Shown piece after piece: positions 3,001 to 53,283 of a stretch of DNA of 64,000 nt. The DNA comes from an uncultured bacterium (GTDB lineage Bacteria; Bacillota; Clostridia; Lachnospirales; Lachnospiraceae). Position 1 is the first letter of the stretch. Each line of letters opens with the position of its first letter. Made by a program: the position numbers and the translations under genes. The notes under the pieces were generated by a model, which was given only the letters and a program-made list of their open reading frames with translations, was not told the origin of the DNA and searched no databases. Location of the stretch: the NCBI GenBank assembly GCA_947643595.1, contig CANRWP010000004.1, positions 19,643-83,642 on the forward strand. The letters are read 5' to 3'.

Positions 3001-3943
3001 CAATAACAACAATTCCAATAAGGAGAAATATACCCTTACCGTTGTAAACGGTTCCGGTTCCGGTACTTATGAAGAAGGAACTACTGTGGTAATAGCGGCA
3101 AATTCAGCCAATACAGGGTATGAGTTTTACAATTGGACGTCCTCGGAGAGCGATACGAATTTTGCCAGCAAGACGATGGCTGCGACATCCTTTACCATGC
3201 CGAAGAAAAATCTGACGGTTACTGCGAACTACAGGGTGAAGAGCGAGACAGGCAACAGTATTACTTCTAAGAGGACACCGGGAACGATAACCTCGTCGCC
3301 GGCTTCCAACACCGGTTCGGTGAATAAGCCGAACACCAGCAGTAATAGCAGTAATACCGGAGGCAACAGCGGAAGCTCGGTGCAGGTGAGCAGGCCCGGT
3401 ATTTCCGATACAAATGTTGCATCGGCAACGGTAAACGGTTCCACGGATAATTTTGTTGTCAAGGTGACGGAGGATGGGCAGGCTACCATGGCAGTGGCCG
3501 AGGCGCTCCGGAATGAGTATGGAAGCCTGGAGAACGTTCACTACTTTGCGATGGATATCTCACTGTACGACGCGACGGGCACAAAGAAAATAACGGATAC
3601 AAATGGTCTTTCCGTGACAGTAACCCTGCCTTTGCCGGATGAACTGCGGCAGTATGGCGGAAATAATAAAGTGGGTGCAGTGACAGGCGGAAATAATCTG
3701 GAGAAATTGAATGCACGGTTTACCACGGTAAACGGTGTTCCCTGTGTGACGTTTACGGCGACGCATTTCTCACCGTATACGATTTATGTAGATACGGCAA
3801 ATCTTTCAGAGGGGGCTTACGATATCACGCCGAAGACAGGAGATGCTATCCATCCGAAATGGTTTCTGGCGATTGGCCTGGCAATGTTCTCGGCGGTATT
3901 GTTCCTGAAGAAGGATAAGAAGACAAATCCTGGGATAGCATGA
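2..3943 (+). CDS. BspA-type leucine-rich-repeat surface protein, 5' end outside window
   Basis: The reading frame is open from base 2, so the gene starts upstream of the window; the ATG at 128 is internal, because the residues before it already form a BspA-type repeat (SFYDCASLKSVTF, AFEDC). LRR_5-type repeats with the AFKDC/VFENC signature fill roughly the first 330 visible residues and recur around 1640-1870 and 2040-2300. Then come two beta-rich InlB/Flg_new-like repeats (about 2640-2850 and 3025-3237), separated by a Pro-Asn linker and an Asn run. The C-terminus has a PKTGD motif (3830-3844), a hydrophobic segment and a KKDKK tail, which reads as a variant sortase anchor. The protein is probably wall-attached and faces outward. 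BspA-type proteins often bind host or matrix ligands, but the ligand here is unknown. A hairpin terminator follows. Confidence 0.9.
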   Translation, partial: PDSLRAIDTYSFYDCASLKSVTFTGNSQLQEIGPSAFEDCRSMVNFTFPGNATVKVLPENVFKNCQSLESFTLPIYIAEIGDEAFKDCRSLKNIQFASPSGLTKVGLNVFENCSSMTEIVLPSSMNTIGYNTFKNCSSLRFVTLPDNPSLKPMRYSTFEGCRALEWIDVLGYGSTFEDTDYKYNVESFKADVRKNEEDTFYFIGEDSGCAIHAVTAAHEIAFQYRVSKNFEKIVHDQTDDKIRYTYLVSPDGKLLDIDIAGGTPETVIIEAKIGPYPITSIGSEFSDDGRGNQDLKSVTIPNTITVIGDNAFKGCNNLREVIFLEPNNIQTIGLDAFKTQEGAGATVTELTFYGDIDLESIPFQYAMQWDSNYNNANQDRSYIDFCSGDGTNIHVRYNPGKIEGSNPDYSHGKREVWKVPTIDVAKIASTASNKDNDDYYKSLKKAMLESGYAEADVDSNMETLVKEYDENGEITSSKPSEDVMRILRTAFNIELPPGIQSIRSELFSEATKENTEKTTIDAGNNSITVPAVNDAATGNFKANTSVRNIIMDDVEELEPYTFYGCKNLESVTMYSSEKEDGENIGDYAFGHCPELTGVYLPGSTAGIGKRPFASVPKLTGIGFVGETAASGGNPAQNRGDNYLSEYGIIYKLENGTKDSIVQCLEARGAFENGIGSSDIEAKELAGINSIAEEAFMNCDNLELIDLTDSNVTNIPEFCFSDSDHLWNVSLPPTCTRVDDFAFKDTLLRRLRVPNMYTIFTNFAFYDSDEAGNVKHDVEVRTMKGSTAEERAKIYSKYGWRVSDAYINMICVTVFQDENGNVIAERRVEEGEAVEEPTEEEWAAYFEKYPEFKDMIFTRWSPANYTPASKEENYVTAIFSDEVTYYHVRFVNDNLSVLMEEDVMSGKRTPIPQTPTSAQNPGASFRGWLSDPQGQSPYDPITCDVTFMASYNSGGGSQSGNDPNNPNNPNNPNDPNNPNNPNNPNNPGNNGGNNNNNNNNNNNNNSNKEKYTLTVVNGSGSGTYEEGTTVVIAANSANTGYEFYNWTSSESDTNFASKTMAATSFTMPKKNLTVTANYRVKSETGNSITSKRTPGTITSSPASNTGSVNKPNTSSNSSNTGGNSGSSVQVSRPGISDTNVASATVNGSTDNFVVKVTEDGQATMAVAEALRNEYGSLENVHYFAMDISLYDATGTKKITDTNGLSVTVTLPLPDELRQYGGNNKVGAVTGGNNLEKLNARFTTVNGVPCVTFTATHFSPYTIYVDTANLSEGAYDITPKTGDAIHPKWFLAIGLAMFSAVLFLKKDKKTNPGIA
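2882..3015 (+). repeat. 9-bp Pro-Asn-Asn/Asp codon repeats followed by an AAT/AAC run
   Basis: About nine copies of a 9-bp unit (CCN AAY AAY, some with GAT) are followed by a Gly/Asn patch and a run of 13 or so Asn codons. The DNA is repetitive enough to change length by slippage in multiples of three bases, which would lengthen or shorten the linker between the surface repeats without breaking the frame. Confidence 0.85.
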
Positions 3944-3954
3944 TGATTTTTGTG

Positions 3955-3990
3955 CAGGAAAGCTGGAGGTCCATTCAGCTTTCCTGTTTT
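3955..3990 (+). terminator. Rho-independent terminator after the LRR surface protein
   Basis: A perfect 11-bp stem (CAGGAAAGCTG with CAGCTTTCCTG) and a 10-base loop is followed by TTTT. It lies 12 bases after the stop codon. Confidence 0.85.
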
Positions 3991-4016
3991 GAACGTTTCA
4001 AAATAGGGGGCCGAAT

Positions 4017-4862
4017 ATGAAGAGAAAAGTATGGATAGGCTGCGGCGTGTTGGTTCTGGCCGTTGCGGTATGGATTGGGGCAAGAAATATAAATGCGACG
4101 GCGGAGACAGAAATCACGGATGAGGAGAATGTGGTTTCCGTTCTTGCGTCGGGAGGGGATTCAACAGAGGAATTACCGGAGGACTCCCTGGAAGAACTGG
4201 AAGCGGCAGAGGAAGCCGCAGAAGTCGGTGAAAACAGCGTGGCGGACGATTCGGAGGAAGGGCTTCTTTATCGAATTGAAACGTCAGCTGTAAATAATAT
4301 GGGGATGGTGCCGATCGTCAACGGAAGTGCTATCGTGCTGTTGGATGGCAGTTATGCGAAAACGTATCAGGGAGATTATGAACCGCAGGAGATGGATGCA
4401 TTTGCCTTAAAGGTGGAAAATGAGGCGGCAAAAGCATCATCTAATGGGAAGATCGGCGAGTGGGCTTTTTACAGAGAAGCCATGTTGAAGAAATTTGAGT
4501 TTCCGGGAGGAGTAACGTCTATCGAGAAGTTTGCCTTTGCCAGAAGTAATCTGAGCAGTGTGGTGATTCCGGAGGGTGTTACCAGCATCGGCTACGGTGC
4601 TTTTTATCATTGTGATTCACTTTCCGAGGTTTCGATACCGGACAGCGTCACAACGATCGAAGAGAATGCTTTTTCCCATACACTCTGGCTCAAAAACTGG
4701 ATGGCGGGAGGAGATGAGAGTGAAAACGAATCAGAAAATTCAGGTTCTTCCGATTTTCTCATTGTCGGAGATGGCATACTGCTTGCCTATCGCGGCAGTG
4801 AGGGAAATCCTGTGCTTCCGGAAGAGGTGAAGAGTGTTGTTCCCGGAGCACTAGGAGAATAA
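4017..4862 (+). CDS. Secreted BspA-type leucine-rich-repeat protein, apparently cut short
   Basis: The 281-residue protein begins with a typical export signal (MKRKVWIGCGVLVLAVAVWI, then an Ala/Asn-rich end). An acidic Glu-rich stretch covers about residues 30-80. A few LRR_5 repeats lie at about 140-220 (EFPGGVTSIEKFAFARSNL, VTSIGYGAFYHCDSL). The C-terminus stops inside what looks like the next repeat (VVPGALGE), and there is no wall anchor. Its end overlaps the opposing subtilisin-like gene by 12 bp. The chosen ATG follows AGGGGG. Either a short secreted LRR protein or the remnant of a longer one; it shares its repeat type with the upstream gene and may be a duplicate. Confidence 0.8.
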   Translation: MKRKVWIGCGVLVLAVAVWIGARNINATAETEITDEENVVSVLASGGDSTEELPEDSLEELEAAEEAAEVGENSVADDSEEGLLYRIETSAVNNMGMVPIVNGSAIVLLDGSYAKTYQGDYEPQEMDAFALKVENEAAKASSNGKIGEWAFYREAMLKKFEFPGGVTSIEKFAFARSNLSSVVIPEGVTSIGYGAFYHCDSLSEVSIPDSVTTIEENAFSHTLWLKNWMAGGDESENESENSGSSDFLIVGDGILLAYRGSEGNPVLPEEVKSVVPGALGE

Positions 4863-5774
4863 CATTGCAACAGGATCGATCATTCCATAGCCCTGCTGAT
4901 TCCAGGCTTCGCCTAAGTTGCGGGCTGTCTGCAGCAGACGTCTCTTACAGTATTCATTGGATTCCACCGGGTTCTTCTCGAAAAACAGTGCGCAGCACCC
5001 GGATACGATGGCGGTTGCCATAGAACTGCCGCTTTTTTTACAATAGTATTTGTCAAATATTGTTTTTCCCCGATATGGAGCCGCCTTGCAGGAGACGATT
5101 TCCGTACCGGGGGCGACTATATCAGGTTTTCTGTAGATATCTGAGACTTCACCTCTGCCGGAATAAAGCTGGCAGGGATGTCCGAAACGATAACTTTCCC
5201 GTCCTTCATGGCAGCCGACAGTAATAATGTTGCGATTCATTCCAAGCATGGAAATGCTGCCGCTTGCCGGTCCGCTGTTTCCCGCCGCACAGATGATCAT
5301 AATACCCTGATACCAGGCTTCGTTTAACAATTCTCGTATCTTGTTATATTCCTGTTTTTCATATCCTTTTCCGGTACCGATCGAAATGTTCAGCACACGA
5401 ATATGGTAAATATCTTTGACATCCAGTATCCACTCCATTGCCTCAGCCATCTTTTCCACACTGCCATCCCCTCTTTTGTCCAAAATTTTTCCGACGATCA
5501 AACGGGCATCCGGCACAATCCCTGCATAGATTCCTTCTGAAGATTTCCCGCTTCCTGCGATACTTCCACACACATGAGTCCCGTGCCCGTAATCATCATA
5601 AGGCGTATTTCTTCCTCCTATAAAATCCCGGAAAGCGAGAACAGACCCTGTCAAATCCGGATGCTTATGGTCGATACCGCTGTCCAGCACAGCAACAGTT
5701 ACAGGTGTTCTCTCAGAGATTTCATTTCTTTTTTCCAAAGTGTACAGTCCAAGTTGATTTCTGACTCTGTTCAT
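4851..5774 (-). CDS. Subtilisin-like S8 serine peptidase without signal peptide
   Basis: A 307-residue S8 peptidase with the full catalytic set: Asp in VAVLDSGID (about residue 31), His in GHGTHVCGS (about 65), oxyanion Asn in AAGNSG and Ser in SGSSMATA (about 250). There is no signal peptide, only about 25 residues before the catalytic domain, and no C-terminal anchor. This resembles intracellular subtilisins more than exported ones. The ATG is preceded by only a weak ribosome site. It converges on the LRR gene with a 12-bp overlap. The substrate is unknown. Confidence 0.9.
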   Translation of the reverse strand: MNRVRNQLGLYTLEKRNEISERTPVTVAVLDSGIDHKHPDLTGSVLAFRDFIGGRNTPYDDYGHGTHVCGSIAGSGKSSEGIYAGIVPDARLIVGKILDKRGDGSVEKMAEAMEWILDVKDIYHIRVLNISIGTGKGYEKQEYNKIRELLNEAWYQGIMIICAAGNSGPASGSISMLGMNRNIITVGCHEGRESYRFGHPCQLYSGRGEVSDIYRKPDIVAPGTEIVSCKAAPYRGKTIFDKYYCKKSGSSMATAIVSGCCALFFEKNPVESNEYCKRRLLQTARNLGEAWNQQGYGMIDPVAMLFS

Positions 5775-5973
5775 ACCGTATTAAAAAATCTTTTTTACTA
5801 TCATAATCAGAAACTCCTTGTTCGGAGTTTGTACGCTTATATTTTCCTTTGAAGCGGATAGTTCCTTGATAATTGCATAGACTTTACACTTTTAATATGG
5901 TATACTTATTAAACGCAGCGGATTTGTATGGGAATAGTGAACCTTGAGTAGAAATATGATTCGGGAGGTAGAT

Positions 5974-44811: not shown

Positions 44812-45066
44812 TTACAGATGTCGAAAATGCTCGTTCTTTATCTTCTGATAATAGGCGTCTTCTTCTTCACTGAAGGCAATTTCAACCACATCGCTTGCCT
44901 GACAATGCAGGATCTGGCACAGTTTGTGCAATGTTTCCATGGTAATATTTTTGTTATGCCGGATATTACTCATCGTGTGACTGCTGATATTGTAGTGGTT
45001 GATCAGGCTGTAAGTAGTAATACCACGCTTTTTCAGTGTGCGCCACAAGGCATTGTAATTGTACAT
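44812..45066 (-). CDS. Small XRE/Cro-type regulator
   Basis: An 84-residue helix-turn-helix protein: ALWRTLKKRGITTYSLINHYNISSHTMSNIRHNKNITMETLHKLCQILHCQASDVVEI matches the single-domain Cro/C1 regulators of Firmicutes. ATG 45066 is chosen because AAAGGAGA lies 8 bases upstream; the much longer frame upstream is antisense to the LytTR gene and is not coding. It is divergent from the LytTR operon, about 150 bases away, so it may act on that promoter (inference). Confidence 0.85.
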   Translation of the reverse strand: MYNYNALWRTLKKRGITTYSLINHYNISSHTMSNIRHNKNITMETLHKLCQILHCQASDVVEIAFSEEEDAYYQKIKNEHFRHL

Positions 45067-45217
45067 AATCATTTCTCCTTTGTATTGATCTTTTATTTCG
45101 TTCCCGTTCAGGACGGTTTCATTCCATTTTATATAAGAAAACAAAAAATATGCCGATAAAATAGATAAGGGGAATTTTAAATAGTGGATGGCTGACGATA
45201 TTGAGGGAAACATTTTG

Positions 45218-45928
45218 ATGGAGATAGCGATAGTGGATGATGAAAAGATCATCTGTAATGAGATAAAAAAGCGGATAAAAAAAATAAAACCCTGTTGCCA
45301 TGCAGACGAATATGCAAGAGGGGAGGATATGCTTTTTGCGGATAAACTGTACAATATCGTATTTTTGGATATACAGCTGAAGGGAAGGGACGGCATCGAT
45401 ATAGCGGAGGAACTGCGGCAGAAATCGGAGAATACGATAGTGATCTTCATCACCGGGGTAAAGGACTATGTGTTTCAGGCTTTTGATGTGGCTGCCTTTC
45501 ATTATCTGTTAAAACCCATAGATGCGGAAAAGTTTGAGGAAGTGTTTGTGCGCGCCTGGAAGGAAGCGGAAAAGCGGAAAAGGAACGAGACGGGGTTTTT
45601 GTTGATCAGAACCAGGAACCGTACATTTCCTTTGCCCAAGGACAGCATTCTCTACGTGGAGAGCAGGGGGAAGAAAGCGGAGATACATACGGCCAGGGAA
45701 ACGATCTCCATGTATGCCTCTCTGAGCGGCCTTCAGGCGGAGTTGGGGGAGGAGTTTTACCGCTCACACAGGGGATATCTTGTCAATATGGCGTATGTTT
45801 CGGAATACTATCACGACAGTATTCTTCTGGCAAACGGGGAGAGCATCTATCTGGCAAAAGAAAAATATCAGGAATTTGCGAGAGCATATATGCGCTATCT
45901 GAGAGGTGGTGGAGTCATACATGGCTGA
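45218..45928 (+). CDS. LytTR-family response regulator
   Basis: A 236-residue protein with an N-terminal receiver (MEIAIVDDEK with the acidic pocket; phospho-acceptor Asp in VFLDIQLKGRDG, about residue 50; Lys in YLLKPIDAEKF) and a C-terminal LytTR DNA-binding domain (from about 130; DSILYVESRGKKAEIHT, FYRSHRGYLVNMAYV). This is the AgrA/LytR class, normally paired with GHKL kinases. ATG 45218 follows GAGGGA; the frame from 45188 has no ribosome site. It overlaps the kinase gene by 8 bp. Confidence 0.95.
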   Translation: MEIAIVDDEKIICNEIKKRIKKIKPCCHADEYARGEDMLFADKLYNIVFLDIQLKGRDGIDIAEELRQKSENTIVIFITGVKDYVFQAFDVAAFHYLLKPIDAEKFEEVFVRAWKEAEKRKRNETGFLLIRTRNRTFPLPKDSILYVESRGKKAEIHTARETISMYASLSGLQAELGEEFYRSHRGYLVNMAYVSEYYHDSILLANGESIYLAKEKYQEFARAYMRYLRGGGVIHG

Positions 45929-47418
45929 GCGGATAACCGTTTTGTGTGAGATCATCGGTTACTTTTTGCAGGGATATTGCCTGCAGTATTTTCTCGGCCT
46001 GTTTTTGGAGAGCAGGTACCCCAGGCGGAGGATAAATTTTTTTATCATACTCAGTTATGGTGTCTTAAAGACGGCTATCGCTTATCTGATCTCTTTTGAT
46101 AAAGGGGGCAGCTTAAACGGCTTGTACCGGCTGGCGCTGCAGGCGGTTTTTCTGACGGTCCTGACATTCTGCTTATACAGGGCGGTGAAAGCTGTTACGG
46201 TTTTTCTGATTACCGCTTTTCTGGCCCTCAGCGAGATCTGTTTTTTTATCGGTTATCTTGTCATGGGCATGAGCACAGTCCTGCTGGAACTGGAACTCTG
46301 GTTTTTTACGAAAGGTTATATAGCGGAAGCCCGTTTTGACAGATTGATCCGGGGGACTGCCGCGTCACTGCAGATATTGTGTTGTGTATTGTGGGTTCTT
46401 TTGTTGTACCTTTCATTGCGGAGAGTGGCGTATTATTTCAGGGAAAAGGACCATGAGATGCAGAAAACGGAACTTCTGTTTATTCTGACGCCAGGCCTCG
46501 CCGGGCTTTTGCTCTGTGTGCTGTTACGCATCATTATGGTCACGGTGGAGGACGGCAGACCGGCTCTTTTGTACGACAGATACCCTGCTCTGCAGTTTCT
46601 CATTCCGGCGATATTGTTGGTTAGTACTTTTATCCATCGTGTACAGCGTCAGGCTTTTTCAGGATATGATCCTGCTGAGCAGGGAGAGGAGCCGGCTTGT
46701 TATTCTGGAACAACAGATCGATACACTGCAGGAACATATCAGAGAGATCGATCGTCTGTACAGCGGAGTGCGGAGCATAAAGCATGATATAAAAAATACT
46801 CTCGCCGTATTGATGAGTCTGTTCTCGGAAGACAAAGCGGAGGAGAGCCCGGAGCTTACGGCATATCTGGCGGAGCTGAACCGGAGTTTTGACAGGCTGG
46901 AATTCAGGTTTCGGACAGGAAATGCGGTGGCGGATGCACTGTTAAATATAAAATATCACGAAATTACGGGGCGCATACCGGAACTTGTGTTTGAGGCGGA
47001 CGATTTGATATTCCAGGAGGATATTCGGATCCAAAGTTATGACATTGGCGTCATTTTAGGCAATGCACTGGACAATGCGATGGAGGGCTGTATACGCCTG
47101 ATACAGCGTCAGCCGAAGGCTGAGACTTTTATCAGGCTCCGTTCTTTTCGGAGAGGGAGGTATTTCTTTCTGGAGGTGGAAAACAGCTTTGACGGGAGGC
47201 TTTCCGGAGAATGCAGGCCCGGTGTTCCCGCAACGCTGAAAGCCGATAAGCAGACACACGGCATTGGTTTTGAGAATATGAAGAAGACCGCCGAAAAATA
47301 CGGCGGTACAGTAGATTATTCCGTTGAAGGTGATTCGGGGGAAACAAAAGATTTGCCCGGTTATGCAATATTTACCTTATCCGTTATGCTGAATTCGAAA
47401 GGAGGGATGGGGATGTAA
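45921..47418 (+). pseudogene. GHKL sensor histidine kinase, frameshifted
   Basis: The N-terminal half, a sensor with about six membrane helices, runs in one frame to 46787. The kinase half continues in the next frame from before 46633. It carries the H-box SIKHDIKNTLAVLMS, N-box GVILGNALDNAMEG and G-box HGIGFENMKKTAEKYGG. Removing one T at 46621-46622 (TTGGTTAGTAC) would rejoin them as ILLVVLLSIVYSVRLFQD, a continuous last helix. The kinase is of the AgrC class, which senses peptides or other signals. As read, it makes a truncated sensor. It is the partner of the LytTR regulator and lies upstream of the five-gene cassette. Confidence 0.85.
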
Positions 47419-47484
47419 TCAAAAGATACGGAGAAAAAACAACAAAATACCTGCTGATTTCAGCGGGAAGAGAGGAGGACATGC

Positions 47485-48246
47485 ATGAGTATGGATTTAA
47501 CTTTTTTATCTGACAGCTATATGCAGCAAATACTGCATCAGCTCAGAAACGTGAGAGACCAGGAAATGCAGAAAAAAGGCGGTTTCCGGTTCGAAGATAT
47601 CCTATCGTCAAAGGAGGATGCCTCAGGCGTTGTCTCGTCAAAGAATAATATTCCGGGCACTGTGTCGGCGGAAGCGAAAGAATACGCGGAATATCTGAAA
47701 AAAACGTACGGCAATGTGATGATAAGGAGCGTCGGAAAAGACCAGCAGAGCATGGATGATCTGGGTATGGGCACAGCGGGCATGGGAAATGTGGTGATCG
47801 CGCCGAATATTTTGGAACAGATGGTACAGGACCCGGAGAAAGCCGCTTACTATGAGGGGAAGATCAAACGCTATTTTCAGGAACTGCCGAAGATCAAGGC
47901 GGAGATTTCCGCGATGGGGCACGAGATCCACTCCTGCGGCATCGTCATTCACCCCGACGGCACGGAAACCTATTACATCACCGGAGACCTGAAGCCGGAG
48001 GTGAGGGCAAGGATCGAGGCACAGATCAGGGCGGAGCAGGAGGAGAAAGCATCGCGCCGGCGAATGTATTTCATCCAGAGCAAAGAGGCCGCCGAGAGAC
48101 GCACAAAGGAACTGCAAAATTACATGAAACATAAAATGATGACGGATCAGATTCGCTTGGACCTTACCGGAGAGCGAGGGGTTCTGACTGACAGAGGAAC
48201 CGACTGGATATCCGCACTTGCTTATATGGGAGGACATATCTTATGA
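47485..48246 (+). CDS. Cassette protein 1 (DUF6033-like, paralog of the next gene)
   Basis: A 253-residue soluble protein with no signal peptide or membrane segment. The core (about 70-190) contains YGNVMIRSVGKDQQSMDDLG, VVIAPNILEQMVQDPEKAAYYEGKI and CGIVIHPDGTETYYI, followed by a basic helical coil (EEKASRRRMYFIQSKEAAERR) and a C-terminal tail. The same core is in the following protein. I recall similar proteins in Lachnospiraceae under DUF6033, but cannot confirm it here. GAGGAGG precedes the ATG. It is the first of five genes after the LytTR/GHKL pair; function unknown. Confidence 0.75.
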   Translation: MSMDLTFLSDSYMQQILHQLRNVRDQEMQKKGGFRFEDILSSKEDASGVVSSKNNIPGTVSAEAKEYAEYLKKTYGNVMIRSVGKDQQSMDDLGMGTAGMGNVVIAPNILEQMVQDPEKAAYYEGKIKRYFQELPKIKAEISAMGHEIHSCGIVIHPDGTETYYITGDLKPEVRARIEAQIRAEQEEKASRRRMYFIQSKEAAERRTKELQNYMKHKMMTDQIRLDLTGERGVLTDRGTDWISALAYMGGHIL

Positions 48247-48869
48247 GTCTGAATATGTCTATGCTAAATCCCTTTTCTTTTTATGCGTTGAAACAGAAAG
48301 CCGATATACTAAACGACCGGTCACATGTAACCGGGTATGGCAGAGAAGTGCCGCAAAACTTTTCAGATGCCGTAAAGGTGAAGGAATATACAGAATATTT
48401 AACAGCAAAATATGGCAATCTGACTGTCAAAAGCGTCGGCAAAGACAGAAAAACGCTCGACAGTCTCGGAAAATCCATGAGCGGGAACGATGTGATCATC
48501 GCGCCGAATATCCTGGAGGAAATGGCACGGGATCCGGAAAAAGCCGCTTACTACGAGGGTAAGATAGACTCTTTCTTTGCGGATATCCCGAGACAGACGG
48601 CGCTCTTTGCCGCAAAGGGACTGGACTATCAGCCCTGCGGTGTTGTGGTGCATGAGGATGGAATCGTCACTTATATTGGCGGATGCGCGGACTCCCCGGA
48701 ACGGGTGGCGCAAGTGAATGCCATCAACAGAGCGAAACGGGAGAAACAGGCGGCGCAGAGAAAAGCGGCGTTTGAGAGAAGCGAGGAGGCAGCGATCCGC
48801 ATAAGAAAGCGGATGGAACAGAAAGCAGCAGATGAGTTAACTCATGCGGAAGGAGGAAGTTTCAGATGA
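48243..48869 (+). CDS. Cassette protein 2 (paralog of cassette protein 1)
   Basis: A 208-residue protein sharing the cassette core: KEYTEYLTAKYGNLTVKSVGK, VIIAPNILEEMARDPEKAAYYEGKI and CGVVVHEDGIVTYIGG, then the same basic helical coil. It lacks the C-terminal extension of protein 1. The start overlaps the previous stop (ATGA), so it is translationally coupled. It probably arose by tandem duplication. No signal peptide or membrane segment is seen. Confidence 0.75.
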   Translation: MSLNMSMLNPFSFYALKQKADILNDRSHVTGYGREVPQNFSDAVKVKEYTEYLTAKYGNLTVKSVGKDRKTLDSLGKSMSGNDVIIAPNILEEMARDPEKAAYYEGKIDSFFADIPRQTALFAAKGLDYQPCGVVVHEDGIVTYIGGCADSPERVAQVNAINRAKREKQAAQRKAAFERSEEAAIRIRKRMEQKAADELTHAEGGSFR

Positions 48870-49735
48870 ATATCGGAAGTGTTGGATATGCAGGATATAC
48901 AGAATATACTTCAAAATATACAGCGAAATATATAGCGGAGCAGACGGGCAAAACCTCCGCCAAAACCGGATTTTCAAAATCGGTGGAAAAGGCGGAGACT
49001 GTCGGGAAGACAGGCGGAGTGACGGAAAGCGCAGTGGAGAGATACATAAAAAAACATCCCGAGGACAGATCCCACGTGGAAGGGCAGGTACGGGCCGGAA
49101 AAAAGGTTCTCGAAAAAAACGGTGTTCAGGATGTCTCCAGGGAAGATATGACAATGGAAGAGTACAAACAGTTCTTCACCGCCCTGATGGACAGTATCCC
49201 CTTCGACGCATCCCATCAGGGAGACGTGGAGATCTGGTCCATCTCCGAAAAAGGGTGGGAACAGATGAAGAACGATCCCGAGTATGAAGCGTGGGTGTTG
49301 GGGTATACCTCGGAGAACCGTTCGGTATACAATCCCTTTGCCTCCTGGCCGGGGTATTCACCGAATGTCTGTACGGAAAATTTCGGAGATTCCATCGAGC
49401 AGCATATCGGTCAGTCCGTGCCCATGAGCAGCGGGAGCAGCAAAAAAACAGATTCAGACGAAGAATCCTGGTGGGAAAAACGCCAAAAAAGGCTGAAAGA
49501 ACTGATTGAGCTGCAGGAAAAAGCGGCAAGAGAGAGGGCCGCAGCATATCGAAAGTCAGAGCAGGCGGAAATGCTGCAGGAGCAGATGATGAGCAACGCC
49601 AGGCTCAGGAATTTCCTGACGGATGGAATATCCGGGGAGGAAAATACGGTATTTTCTTCCGGGCATGTCACAGTCGCGACAAATACCTATCTGAATATGA
49701 TGGATCTGTTCAGCGGGAATATCGGGAAAATATAA
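48866..49735 (+). CDS. Cassette protein 3 (divergent relative)
   Basis: A 289-residue protein coupled to protein 2 by an ATGA overlap. The N-terminus is rich in Tyr, Gly, Thr and Ser (NIGSVGYAGYTEYTSKYTA), a disordered-looking start shared in style with protein 4. The middle (ERYIKKHPEDRSHVEGQV, WSISEKGWEQMKNDPEYEAWVLGYTSENR) echoes the DPEKAAYYEGKI segment of proteins 1 and 2. A Glu/Lys/Arg-rich coil follows (about 205-260). Function unknown. Confidence 0.7.
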   Translation: MNIGSVGYAGYTEYTSKYTAKYIAEQTGKTSAKTGFSKSVEKAETVGKTGGVTESAVERYIKKHPEDRSHVEGQVRAGKKVLEKNGVQDVSREDMTMEEYKQFFTALMDSIPFDASHQGDVEIWSISEKGWEQMKNDPEYEAWVLGYTSENRSVYNPFASWPGYSPNVCTENFGDSIEQHIGQSVPMSSGSSKKTDSDEESWWEKRQKRLKELIELQEKAARERAAAYRKSEQAEMLQEQMMSNARLRNFLTDGISGEENTVFSSGHVTVATNTYLNMMDLFSGNIGKI

Positions 49736-49777
49736 GTTTGGGCGGCAGTTTGAAAAATCATCGGAGGATATGACAAT

Positions 49778-50401
49778 ATGAGTATATACGGAATCAGAAG
49801 CGGCGGATACCCTGCAACGGCAGGGTATCCGTACGGAAGAACGGAGAGAGGAACAGGTACGGGAGTTTACGCAAAATATGCGGAAACGCTGCAGGGGTCG
49901 GACAGGGCGGACGGAAATTTTGTGCTGCACTATTTTGACCATGAAGACGGAGAAAGAGCGGTGGCGCGCAAAAAGCTGACAGCCAGCTATAACGGAGTTC
50001 CCCTGAGGAGAAGTGCTGATGATAAAAAATATACCGATAAAGAAACTGGCATCTCTTATTATGTCGCCGACGGGAAGCATCCTTATATCACCGGGGAGGA
50101 CGTGGAAAAATTAAAAGAGTTATGCGCTGCAACAGGGGAACCTCTCCTGAAAAAAATGGGTGAGATCACCGGAATGATAAGACATCTGGATGAAAACACC
50201 ACGGCTTATGTCGGGGATAACGGCACTGTGATAAAATCGAAAGACGGCAGAGAATTATCGATCAACACATCCTTGCTGTCTTATGATGTACTGTCCTTCA
50301 TGTTCCGGAATATCGGGTCATCAGGCGATTATTTTAACGAAAAATACTGGTTCGGAAAGATACAGGATGCCGTCGGAAATTATCTGACAGGCGGCAAATA
50401 G
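49778..50401 (+). CDS. Cassette protein 4, unknown family
   Basis: A 207-residue protein starting MSIYGIRSGGYPATAGYPYG, a Gly/Tyr-rich disordered-looking segment, followed by a mixed alpha/beta domain (FVLHYFDHEDGERAV, GISYYVADGKHPYITGEDVEKL, TTAYVGDNGTVIKSKDG) and an amphipathic C-terminus. No signal peptide or membrane segment. GGAGGA precedes the ATG, 43 bases after protein 3. I do not recognise a domain. Confidence 0.65.
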   Translation: MSIYGIRSGGYPATAGYPYGRTERGTGTGVYAKYAETLQGSDRADGNFVLHYFDHEDGERAVARKKLTASYNGVPLRRSADDKKYTDKETGISYYVADGKHPYITGEDVEKLKELCAATGEPLLKKMGEITGMIRHLDENTTAYVGDNGTVIKSKDGRELSINTSLLSYDVLSFMFRNIGSSGDYFNEKYWFGKIQDAVGNYLTGGK

Positions 50402-50478
50402 TACTGCATGTTGTCTGCCGCGGGATTGTCGGACAAAAATCGTGCGGCAGGACAGCGCAGAAATAAGGAGTATAAAGC

Positions 50479-52572
50479 ATGGATATATCAAATCAAAGAT
50501 CTTACCAGGGTTCATGGTATGTAAACCCGAATACCAGAACCCTGACATCAGACAGAAAAAATACGTCGATCAAAGACAGGGACGCCTTCAGCTGTATGCA
50601 GCATCTGCTGCATCCTGTGGAAGATATGGCCAGGGTGGTGCGGACACCGATGAGACTGGCTGAAAAGACCTGCGTGAACAGAATGACGAATTCCGTGACG
50701 ATCGCGGCGGGAACCCGCATTACGGTAAATGACGGCTATGTTCTGACGGTGACGGAGCGGGGCGTGGAATGCCATCATGGAGAAAATTATGATCCCTATG
50801 ATACGGAAGCCTATGTAGAAGCACAGGCACTGGCGGGCGCCCTTGGTACACTGCTGAGGAACGCCGGCGGAACACAGAAGACCACGGCGTTCAGCGAGGA
50901 GGATTATCAGACATGGACGGAGAATGTCTCATCAGTGCTGTCTTACATGGGCATTGACGGGAGCAGAGATTTTTCCGTAAACGGCATGAAATACCACAAA
51001 GACAGCGAAGGATACTGGGAGTCGGAAGAAAACAGCAGGGCGAAAGCTGCCTGGGAAATACAGCGGAGGAACAACCGGACATACACCTTTGCCGACGACC
51101 GGACAAAAAGCCAGGTCGCCTATATAAGCGGCTATTATCTGGAGCATGCATCGGAAGAAATGCGGGCGGCATGGCAGAAAGCTTTGGAAGAGACCGGCGT
51201 CAATCCCTTCCCGGAGGGTTATGCCAGCGCGCTGTCCCAGTTCGCCATGGAACAGGATTTTGCCACCGGAGGAAACGATGTTATTTTCGGGGCGGATATA
51301 GAGCGCAATATCGCGGCAATACAGAACATTCTGGACAGGATAGATCATCCGCGCAAAAATGTATCTGAGGAAGATCAGGTTTTCCTGAAGGAAGAGAAAC
51401 TGTTTTACAGGGCGATTCTTGGATACCTGACCGTATCAGAAACGACAGACAAAATGGAGACGTCCGGCGAAAAAGTTTCCTATACTTCCTATGCATCCGC
51501 AAATTACAGGATAGAGCCGGACAATGAAAATGAGTGCTTTACCATATTTAACGGACAGGGCGAACGGCTCGGCGTCTTTTTTTACTCGGATATCAAATGC
51601 AGGCAGGATACCGCAACCGGCAGACAGCTTCTGATCTCTGAGAACGGAACCATGTGGTATGAGGCGCTGGCGCTTGATCAGGAATTGAAGGAGGACTTAC
51701 AGCACATCATGGGTGTCGATGCCCTGAAAACAGAACCTCTTCAGGGATATACTCTGAAAACCCATGCCGGTACCGGTATACAGTATGTGGTCAGAGACGG
51801 CGACGAGGGACGCGGCGGCAGGGTGCTTTTGCAAAGCGAGGCGGACATCCAAAAATATGAGGCGCTGGCTGAAACATATTTCAACAGATATCCGAATCTG
51901 ATCGAAAGCAAAGAGGAGGCGTACATATGGGCTTCCTTTGAGATCAGACAAATGGCAGTGCGCACAGACCAGGGCATTCTCTCCATACATTGTGATGGTA
52001 TGTCTTACAATGATAATACGAACGCAGTAAAAAACTGGAGCATTCCTTTCGGGGAGGATACCTGTCAAATGATTTTTGAGTGGCTTGAACATGGTGGAAA
52101 CGGAGAAGCGGAGTTGGAGAAATTTTCTGTGTGGCAGGATATTCTCAAAAAGATTAACTGCAACAAAGATACAACCGAATCTGCCCTTCAGACACCATAT
52201 ATGAAATATGCCGAAATAGCTTTCTACTCTGTCGGTTCCAGGGCGCCGCAGGAGGTGAAAAAGGCGTGGATGGACGCCGCCAGAGAGACAGGCGCAAACG
52301 GTCTCGGCATAGGCGCAAACGGGATGATGACTCATATCTCTCAGATGATGGTACAGCGGTTAAAGAGAAATCTGACGGGCAGGGGTTCTGACGCAGACGA
52401 CATACTTGGAAACAGCGTTTCATCGGCACTCCAGGCGGCAAAAGAGGCTCTGTACGATCTGGAGAATCCGCTTTCGAGAAACAACGAAAATAGTCTCGAA
52501 GTGCAGTACTATCGCAGGAGAGAACGGGCATTTTATCAGGCGTTTATCAGAAATCTGGAAGGGCTTTTGTGA
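50479..52572 (+). CDS. Cassette protein 5, large protein with internal duplication
   Basis: A 697-residue soluble protein, the largest of the cassette. A helical unit at about residues 215-310 (EEMRAAWQKALEETGVNPF, later LFYRAILGYL) recurs at about 590-695 (QEVKKAWMDAARETGANGL, later AFYQAFIRNL), pointing to an internal duplication. The N-terminus holds a short beta-rich domain (SVTIAAGTRITVNDGYVLTVTERG). No signal peptide, membrane helix or known catalytic motif is seen. AAGGAG precedes the ATG. Function unknown. Confidence 0.65.
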   Translation: MDISNQRSYQGSWYVNPNTRTLTSDRKNTSIKDRDAFSCMQHLLHPVEDMARVVRTPMRLAEKTCVNRMTNSVTIAAGTRITVNDGYVLTVTERGVECHHGENYDPYDTEAYVEAQALAGALGTLLRNAGGTQKTTAFSEEDYQTWTENVSSVLSYMGIDGSRDFSVNGMKYHKDSEGYWESEENSRAKAAWEIQRRNNRTYTFADDRTKSQVAYISGYYLEHASEEMRAAWQKALEETGVNPFPEGYASALSQFAMEQDFATGGNDVIFGADIERNIAAIQNILDRIDHPRKNVSEEDQVFLKEEKLFYRAILGYLTVSETTDKMETSGEKVSYTSYASANYRIEPDNENECFTIFNGQGERLGVFFYSDIKCRQDTATGRQLLISENGTMWYEALALDQELKEDLQHIMGVDALKTEPLQGYTLKTHAGTGIQYVVRDGDEGRGGRVLLQSEADIQKYEALAETYFNRYPNLIESKEEAYIWASFEIRQMAVRTDQGILSIHCDGMSYNDNTNAVKNWSIPFGEDTCQMIFEWLEHGGNGEAELEKFSVWQDILKKINCNKDTTESALQTPYMKYAEIAFYSVGSRAPQEVKKAWMDAARETGANGLGIGANGMMTHISQMMVQRLKRNLTGRGSDADDILGNSVSSALQAAKEALYDLENPLSRNNENSLEVQYYRRRERAFYQAFIRNLEGLL

Positions 52573-52651
52573 GTTATTTTTTCTTTGACAGATGACTTCC
52601 GGCAGTTATGCCGGTCAATTCGACTGACCCAGTCAATACCGGGAACCACTC

Positions 52652-53120
52652 TTATTTTCCCCGCCGATCCGGTTCAAGGTTGGCGGGGAAAATATCCGCC
52701 ACCTCATTGATCGCGATATAGGTCTTCGGATCGATCTTATGCACCAGATTCTTCATTTTTCCCACCTGAAAACGATTCACCACAAAATAGATCAGCGTTT
52801 TGTCCAAATTGGAGTAATACCCTTTCGCGTCGATAATGGTCATCCCATTCTCAAAAGTTTCGGAGAGTGCCTTACAGACCGATAGAATACAGGGGAAGAT
52901 GGCTCCGCCGAACCGCACCGTAAGGCCGCTGCCGCATACCGAAATGATCCCGCCGAAGATAGCGCACAAAAACAGATCCTTCCTTCTTTAGTCCGAACAG
53001 AAAGATCGGAATGACGACTCCGAAAGCGTTTATGATGCCTGCAGCCGTCAGAAACAGGAGATTCATAACATTCAAAGCGTGCATTACATTTAGAACAGCG
53101 TGCAGGAGATTTTTTGTCAT
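52652..53120 (-). pseudogene. Decayed YitT/DUF2179-type membrane protein gene
   Basis: Two minus-strand fragments in different frames. The first (about 53120-52960) has NLLFLTAAGIINAFGVVIPIFLFGLKK, like the first helix and loop of YitT proteins. The second (about 52970-52652) has CAIFGGIISVCGSGLTVRFGG and the C-terminal DUF2179 domain (ENGMTIIDAKGYYSNLDKTLIYFVVN). Roughly 120-150 residues of the usual membrane domain are missing between them, so deletion plus frameshift has inactivated the gene. Confidence 0.75.
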
Positions 53121-53283
53121 ATAGTTCCAATTCCTCTTTCCAGGGTGACTTTTTCACATCATAACATGAACAGAGGGAAGACTTTTCAACAAAATAATCG
53201 AGGCTTTCAGGCATGTCCCGGACAACCCCCGCATAGAATGGTAAGAGCAGTACAAAATGTAAGAATCGGGAGGATTGTCTGAT

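Follow-up and report, generated by a model that had tools for sequence, protein, structure and literature searches.

Campylobacter jejuni is reported to use its flagellar type III apparatus for the export of non-flagellar proteins, which an N-terminal sequence directs (PMC2764114, PMC5223770). A canonical LytTR site, according to a portion of PMC11347149, consists of two 9-bp direct repeats spaced by 10-13 bp, and binding upstream of the -35 element with activation of transcription is the mode of most LytTR regulators. For sigma28, an excerpt of PMC3720852 gives the consensus TAAA-N16-17-MCGATAa in Butyrivibrio and TAAA-N15-CCGATAT in general. Here we analysed a stretch of 64,000 nucleotides from an uncultured Lachnospiraceae bacterium (the window; contig CANRWP010000004.1 of assembly GCA_947643595.1, positions 19,643 to 83,642), in which a LytTR response regulator gene and a GHKL sensor kinase gene lead into five genes, p1 to p5 (the cassette, positions 45218-52572). 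The genes behind the pair, and corresponding gene sets elsewhere, are referred to as arrays, and L and G numbers denote the loci and genomes compared. The explanation that we favour, with somewhat guarded confidence, is a flagellar-regulon cassette in which the pair and five signal-less proteins lie behind one sigma28-type promoter with a LytTR-type operator, the proteins being likely exported by the flagellar type III apparatus. The five genes are likely switched on by the pair, and flagellar export of their products is predicted, because the cluster sits behind this joint signature and those of its families that were tested are nearly confined to flagellar genomes. Like the Cia proteins and others of C. 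jejuni, the products would be non-flagellar proteins exported by the flagellar apparatus under N-terminal direction, here as a prediction; unlike the situation in C. jejuni, the Lachnospiraceae operon holds a LytTR/GHKL pair, a LytTR-type/sigma28-type promoter and a multi-gene array.

Gene order, predicted operator and promoter

All seven genes lie on the plus strand. The response regulator gene (45218..45928) encodes both a receiver domain (PF00072, E 3.8e-17) and a LytTR DNA-binding domain (PF04397, E 9.2e-18) and overlaps the kinase gene (45921..47418) by 8 bases. A gap of 66 bases separates the kinase from p1 (47485..48246, 253 aa); p1 and p2 (48243..48869, 208 aa), and p2 and p3 (48866..49735, 289 aa), overlap by 4 bases each, and gaps of 42 and 77 bases precede p4 (49778..50401, 207 aa) and p5 (50479..52572, 697 aa). 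These coordinates bear out the gene order, single strand and tight spacing given in an earlier sequence-only reading of this DNA. The order regulator-kinase-p1-p3-p4-p5 is kept in five close loci (L096-L100), with p2 absent from L096 and L100, and because of this recurrence it is not a product of chance. That reading had also named the pair as LytTR/GHKL. The domain assignments held, with Response_reg and LytTR in the regulator and the GHKL family HATPase_c_5 in the C-terminal part of the kinase (PF14501, E 3.4e-17, second frame), but the kinase is not one frame here, its membrane N-part (45921-46787) and its GHKL ATPase part (46516-47418) being in separate frames. The kinase frame is unbroken both in the near-identical strain 1XD8-76 (L096, RAZE01000004.1; homolog at 4438-5973), whose longer alignments with the window show about 93-99% identity, and in genome G184 of the same genus (L040; homolog at 3527-5110). 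The break may be real or technical.

A predicted LytTR-type operator, the direct repeat TTTCGTTCC-N12-TTTCATTCC, lies at 45096..45125 on the plus strand. As in known LytTR operators, two 9-bp direct repeats lie upstream of the -35 element, with a 12-bp spacer in the window and 12 or 13 bp overall; unlike in those operators, they are joined to a sigma28-type promoter and differ in sequence from the usual repeat. The TTTCGTTCC/TTTCATTCC pair is unique in the window, with 0 expected in 100 shuffles. The same pair was found in 12 of 213 loci, and at each of its 13 places CGATA lay 58-60 bases from its start; two of these places (L040 and L097) are one contig. The canonical repeat WMMGTTNRK was tried and rejected, as it gave no pair in the window and weak pairs in 4 of 14 regions, while 108 of 400 shuffles gave one; the window's own repeat was recognised in the accompanying alignment.

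The repeat test covered 28 regions, with L128 left out. L116 and L117 had no core, and L132, L136 and L185 were scored on the weaker CGATA core. Among the 26 upstream stretches with a -10 core, several of them from close relatives, 18 carried a 9-bp direct repeat matched by at most 5% of shuffles, and in 15 of these 18 the repeat started 57-60 bases before the core. When 817 kb were scanned for any repeat followed by CCGATA, 25 matches fell on the array strand versus 9 on the opposite strand, one of the latter lying in the window at 48876. The regulators closest to that of the window (E below 1e-70) are accompanied by TTTCRTTCC or near forms, and more distant regulators by other repeats, such as GTCATTTGG (L110, and nearly so L108), ATTCACG (L106), TTCACAACA (L130) and TATTTCACA (L132). 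The repeat sequence appears to covary with the regulator subfamily, which is what binding of the regulator at the repeat would predict.

The predicted sigma28 (FliA/SigD)-type promoter, TATA-N16-GCCGATAA, lies at 45132..45159 on the plus strand and was assigned from the consensus excerpted from PMC3720852. Compared with TAAA-N15-17-CCGATA, its -10 element is exact and its -35 element agrees at 3 of 4 positions; an alternative -35 is TAAG at 45134, 14 bases before GCCGATAA. The FliA sigma factor is encoded in the same genome (L171, 1414-2184). Of 25 array-linked regulators, 16 have CCGATA between -160 and -10, versus 8 of 353 control open reading frames of the same loci (P 2e-16). The motif also precedes 18 of 28 single-copy genes of DUF6033, the family of p1 and p2, versus 1 of 49 (28 of 30 loci were counted, L082 and L088 being left out). 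Scans of the region for sigma70-type promoters and for terminators were near chance (15 vs 11.7 and 10 vs 7.4).

When genome contigs were scanned with a protein pattern of the middle p5 unit, 45 loci were returned, mostly titled Lachnospiraceae or unclassified, with one metagenome-assembled genome titled Bacillus sp. Of the 28 loci with at least 6.5 kb upstream of the p5-family gene, 17 had a regulator matching that of the window within this distance and on the same strand. All eight array regulators given to Pfam contained a LytTR domain, including the three weakest matches (L116, L117 and L128). Since the GHKL ATPase family has 14 matches in the 3.2 Mb of the window's own genome, we estimate that the neighbourhood of regulator and array is well above chance. 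The tie between the cassette and a LytTR/GHKL pair, also proposed from the sequence alone, was upheld in part: arrays recur with the pair, but single-copy DUF6033 genes also occur away from any LytTR pair in the stretches inspected. Regulation of the cassette by a LytTR protein is considered quite likely. The regulator would bind the direct repeat and, together with sigma28 RNA polymerase, would turn on its own operon and hence the array.

Flagellar setting and N-terminal type

Among 200 genomes drawn from the family (199 genera), 111 had FlhA and 66 had DUF6033. All 66 DUF6033 genomes carried FlhA (hypergeometric P 3.7e-23, read as a measure of surprise and not as a test on a tree, the genera not being independent), as did 17 of 18 genomes with the p3 family and 15 of 16 with the p5 family. 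In a class-wide draw DUF6033 was over the cut-off in 18 of 343 genomes and 17 of the 18 had FlhA; 6 of the 18 are shared with the family draw, and the FlhA base rate at hand is that of the family draw only. Five further genomes of the class-wide draw had DUF6033 matches below the cut-off, two of them without FlhA. It is very probable that the cassette belongs to the flagellar regulon. The marker WXG100 was counted as a control for type VII secretion, whose substrates could likewise be signal-less, largely helical proteins. It was found in 21 of the 66 DUF6033 genomes versus 56 of 200 overall (Fisher P 0.41), and with WXG100 not linked to DUF6033 the notion of type VII substrates is disfavoured and scarcely credible.

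In one genome, G106 (L185 and L196), an array was found among flagellar genes. One strand carries flagellin, LytTR, GHKL, a DUF6033-like gene, five more array genes, DUF6033 and FliS, followed beyond FliS by other genes, including one that is Mbl/MreB-like, and then by flgF, flgG and a flgJ-like gene. A late operon on the same contig and strand reads flgM, flgN, flgK, flgK, flgL, fliW, csrA, flaG, fliD, fliS, fliC (flagellin, FlgF, FlgG and FlgM were named by NCBIfam, FliS by Pfam, and the others from N-termini and order). In G425, which is of another family, a DUF6033 gene and a FlxA-like gene lie behind CheC/CheD-like genes, about 5 kb from FlhA. A FlxA-like gene (PF14282) belongs to the array of L130, and another neighbours DUF6033 in L209; unlike these, none of the five window proteins matched PF14282 in Pfam. 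In E. coli, flxA is sigma28-dependent. FliS-like proteins are encoded in L173 (11144-11692; own genome, behind flagellin) and in L185 (7968-8447; G106, beside DUF6033), and are candidate export chaperones judging by sequence, the G106 protein matching Pfam FliS and the own-genome one being named by likeness.

The array products could also be extra structural or filament-decorating proteins that are exported by the flagellum and retained on it, an explanation that overlaps ours and differs in the place of action. DUF6033 behaves as a common flagellar gene would, being present in 66 of 111 FlhA genomes, and the G106 array adjoins flagellin and FliS. The p3 and p5 families, however, are patchy (18 and 16 of 200 family genomes, with most p5 matches covering one or two units), and array content differs within a single species, so that their members look dispensable. 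We regard retention on the flagellum as unlikely, though worth keeping in mind.

The Kyte-Doolittle maximum over 19-residue windows was at most 0.95 in p1-p5 versus 2.36 in the N-part of the kinase. The five proteins have no membrane-like or signal-like hydrophobic segment, a trait of type III substrates, in agreement with the earlier view that none has a signal peptide or membrane helix (by hydropathy only, without a signal-peptide program). AlphaFold2 models of two proteins had low confidence at residues 1-60 of p1 and 1-62 of p5, with a better-scored part after them, consistent with the unstructured N-terminus expected of such substrates. Proteins 3 and 4 had been noted for Tyr/Gly-rich starts; this was correct but incomplete, as the N-terminal type is common to all five and to unrelated array families. 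From 11 recurrent array families a position profile was built that spans the 16 residues following Met, the families being chosen by eye from gene-chain clusters with ordinary-looking neighbour clusters left out and no flagellar proteins in training. The leave-one-family-out medians lay at 0.88-0.99 of 231 background proteins. The profile separated exported from non-exported flagellar proteins with an area under the curve of 0.88 (72 vs 131 N-termini), and medians for FliC, FlgL, FlgM and FlaG were 0.989-0.996. Scores in the window were 0.90 for p1, 0.987 for p2 and p3, 0.983 for p4 and 0.991 for p5, and those of nine other window genes were 0.004-0.805. All five proteins have an N-terminus of axial-protein type as a statistical likeness, p1 being the weakest.

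The co-occurrence, promoter and locus evidence would fit equally well if the five were sigma28-regulon proteins kept inside the cell as cytoplasmic partners of the motor, of assembly or of chemotaxis, and the non-exported FliS and FliH do score high on the profile. Against such partners stands the N-terminal type itself, which unrelated families have in common with flagellin, FlgL, FlgM and FlaG and which most non-exported flagellar proteins lack; variable repertoires with fusions would also be unusual among machine parts. An intracellular role is rather improbable, and export of the array proteins via the flagellum is predicted as reasonably likely. Under the flagellar-export reading the array proteins would be made solely during flagellum building and in the presence of a signal at the kinase, the shared N-terminus would serve as the export signal, and the folded parts would have their targets outside the cell, either the filament or neighbours. 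The sequence-only reading had proposed a signal-controlled module for intracellular or unconventionally exported proteins. The module is supported because of the LytTR-type operator with its sigma28-type promoter, the recurring pair and a specific likely exporter; this would be the flagellar type III apparatus, and an intracellular fate has become less likely. Nothing observed here pointed to the peptide control that the reading had offered as one option.

Observations against flagellar export

Several observations weigh against a flagellar export cassette under LytTR control. As to the general idea, flagellar toxin export in the Bacillus cereus group has been disputed (PMC3009653). As to the promoter, the -35 element of the window, whether TATA or TAAG, is imperfect, and 9 of the 25 array-linked regulators lack CCGATA in the scanned stretch, although L099, L124 and L140 among these nine show it given a longer stretch or an earlier start. 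Exact CCGATA was present in neither of two inspected flagellin genes of the own genome, and in the flagellar loci it was in the best match of 8 of 14 flagellin and 2 of 5 FlgM genes. The strict pattern TAAA-N14-16-GCCGATA gave 6 matches in the own genome versus 11 in the reversed control. Since this pattern with perfect TAAA is not enriched genome-wide, the motif is not convincing alone; as a sequence motif it is convincing through position and recurrence.

The regulatory part meets two further difficulties. The switch may be defective in this strain because the kinase is broken. In L130 and L133 a TTTCRTTCC module precedes an array gene with no regulator of that type within the examined stretch, and some arrays may therefore answer to a distant regulator or to none.

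The N-terminal profile also gave false positives (FliS 0.93, FliH 0.87) and missed FlgF (0.46, one sequence). Shuffled N-termini retained 37% of the gain for array proteins and 60% for exported flagellar proteins, so composition explains part of the signal. Most of the exported and non-exported labels behind the comparison were assigned by us from gene order and sequence and then extended with phmmer.

Array genes occur in two FlhA-negative genomes, G159 and G467. The former is Eubacterium ramulus ATCC 29099, 99% complete, the sole FlhA-negative exception for both the p3 and p5 families, and its genes lie on one 4.7-kb contig. This contig (L107, NZ_KI271154.1, 4698 bp) has array pieces, a direct repeat and a CCGATA core (1055); the pieces may be a relict, a horizontal gain or a stray contig. 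G467 (L208, G467:C11), from another family and of high guanine-cytosine (GC) content, has a complete LytTR/GHKL array without FlhA. The GC content of the array contig is 0.43-0.50 versus 0.61 in a stretch of another contig of the same genome, and the tetranucleotide usage of the two correlates at r -0.03 (0.37 for the next stretch). Compared with Lachnospiraceae array loci, the same contig gave r 0.93-0.97 and 75-89% identity over flank pieces. On this mismatch with its own genome and likeness to Lachnospiraceae array loci, the G467 array contig is probably mis-binned.

In two genomes that do not belong to the family, DUF6033 relatives were also found clustered with radical S-adenosylmethionine (SAM) and S8 peptidase genes. 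L205 (G344:C1:4050000-4069900) has tandem DUF6033 relatives, radical SAM and S8 peptidase genes identified by Pfam, and an ABC transporter-like gene; in L206 (G221:C1:1366000-1385900) DUF6033 relatives lie beside radical SAM and S8 peptidase genes identified by likeness. The DUF6033 relatives of both loci carry the same N-terminal type as the arrays. These loci possibly represent a setting of the DUF6033 family related to ribosomally synthesised and post-translationally modified peptides (RiPPs) or to processing. LytTR/GHKL pairs often regulate bacteriocins, and this habit and the two clusters would be accommodated by a LytTR-controlled bacteriocin or RiPP-like module using another exporter. 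Yet no maturase, peptidase or ABC exporter was found by Pfam among the seven genes of the window, to which this search was confined, the products are 207-697 aa long, and such a module would leave the flagellar promoter and the FlhA profile unexplained. We consider it very unlikely.

Array protein families and significance

Proteins p1 and p2 are members of DUF6033 (PF19498), with scores of 96.8 bits (E 2.1e-27) and 93.6 bits (E 1.9e-26) over a curated cut-off of 25. The family is described as of unknown function, so the membership is not the match to a characterised family that would have told against a module. Pfam gave no PF19498 match over the cut-off for p3, p4 or p5. Alignment of p3 with the DUF6033 profile by hhalign (probability 95%, E 2.9e-8) indicated a distant relative, which agrees with the core that proteins 1-3 had been said to share. 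For p4 and p5 no Pfam or NCBIfam family was over the cut-off, and Foldseek searches of PDB with p1 and p5 gave no match at E <= 0.001, the model of p5 being weak (mean predicted local distance difference test score 67.7). No paper on 'DUF6033' was found by a search of open-licence PMC literature. At about 13.9-15.6 kb of G034:C87, a 578-aa frame that lies some 1 kb away from a DUF6033 gene gave a weak WXG100 match.

Comparison with L096, which has two separate genes at the place of p4, indicated that p4 is two array genes fused at 49970/49971, with about 490 bases missing. Comparison with relatives indicated that p5 combines three units (about 1-327, 331-561 and 565-697), which in other genomes are separate or differently joined genes; the third is a gene of its own in L040, and unit 1 is related to unit 3 (27% identity, E 7e-8, single comparison). 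That array genes are fused, lost or changed in copy number suggests rapid selection of the kind expected for surface or effector proteins. As for the flanks of the cassette, translation of 44812-45070 on the minus strand reads as a small XRE-type helix-turn-helix gene divergent from the regulator, and a membrane protein gene at 52650-53130 on the minus strand is split into short frames here and intact in L096 (11166-12083, minus strand).

No account of such arrays was found in titles and abstract openings of open-licence PMC papers. The flagella of gut Lachnospiraceae are mostly treated as motility organelles and flagellin sources. Tentatively, and with less than even confidence, we suggest that gut Lachnospiraceae with flagella may possess a fast-evolving, effector-like arsenal fired through the flagellum, each set under its own LytTR/GHKL sensor and a fused operator and promoter, which would amount to a sensor-gated secretion system built on the flagellum. 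DUF6033, the p3 and p5 families and other families would become testable members of the flagellar regulon, and the regulatory prediction is that LytTR and sigma28 act at one promoter, with operators changing along with regulators. If the proposal is true, commensals would own an unnoticed, regulated protein channel to mucus, neighbours or host, and the arrays would give common gut bacteria an output that has not been described before.

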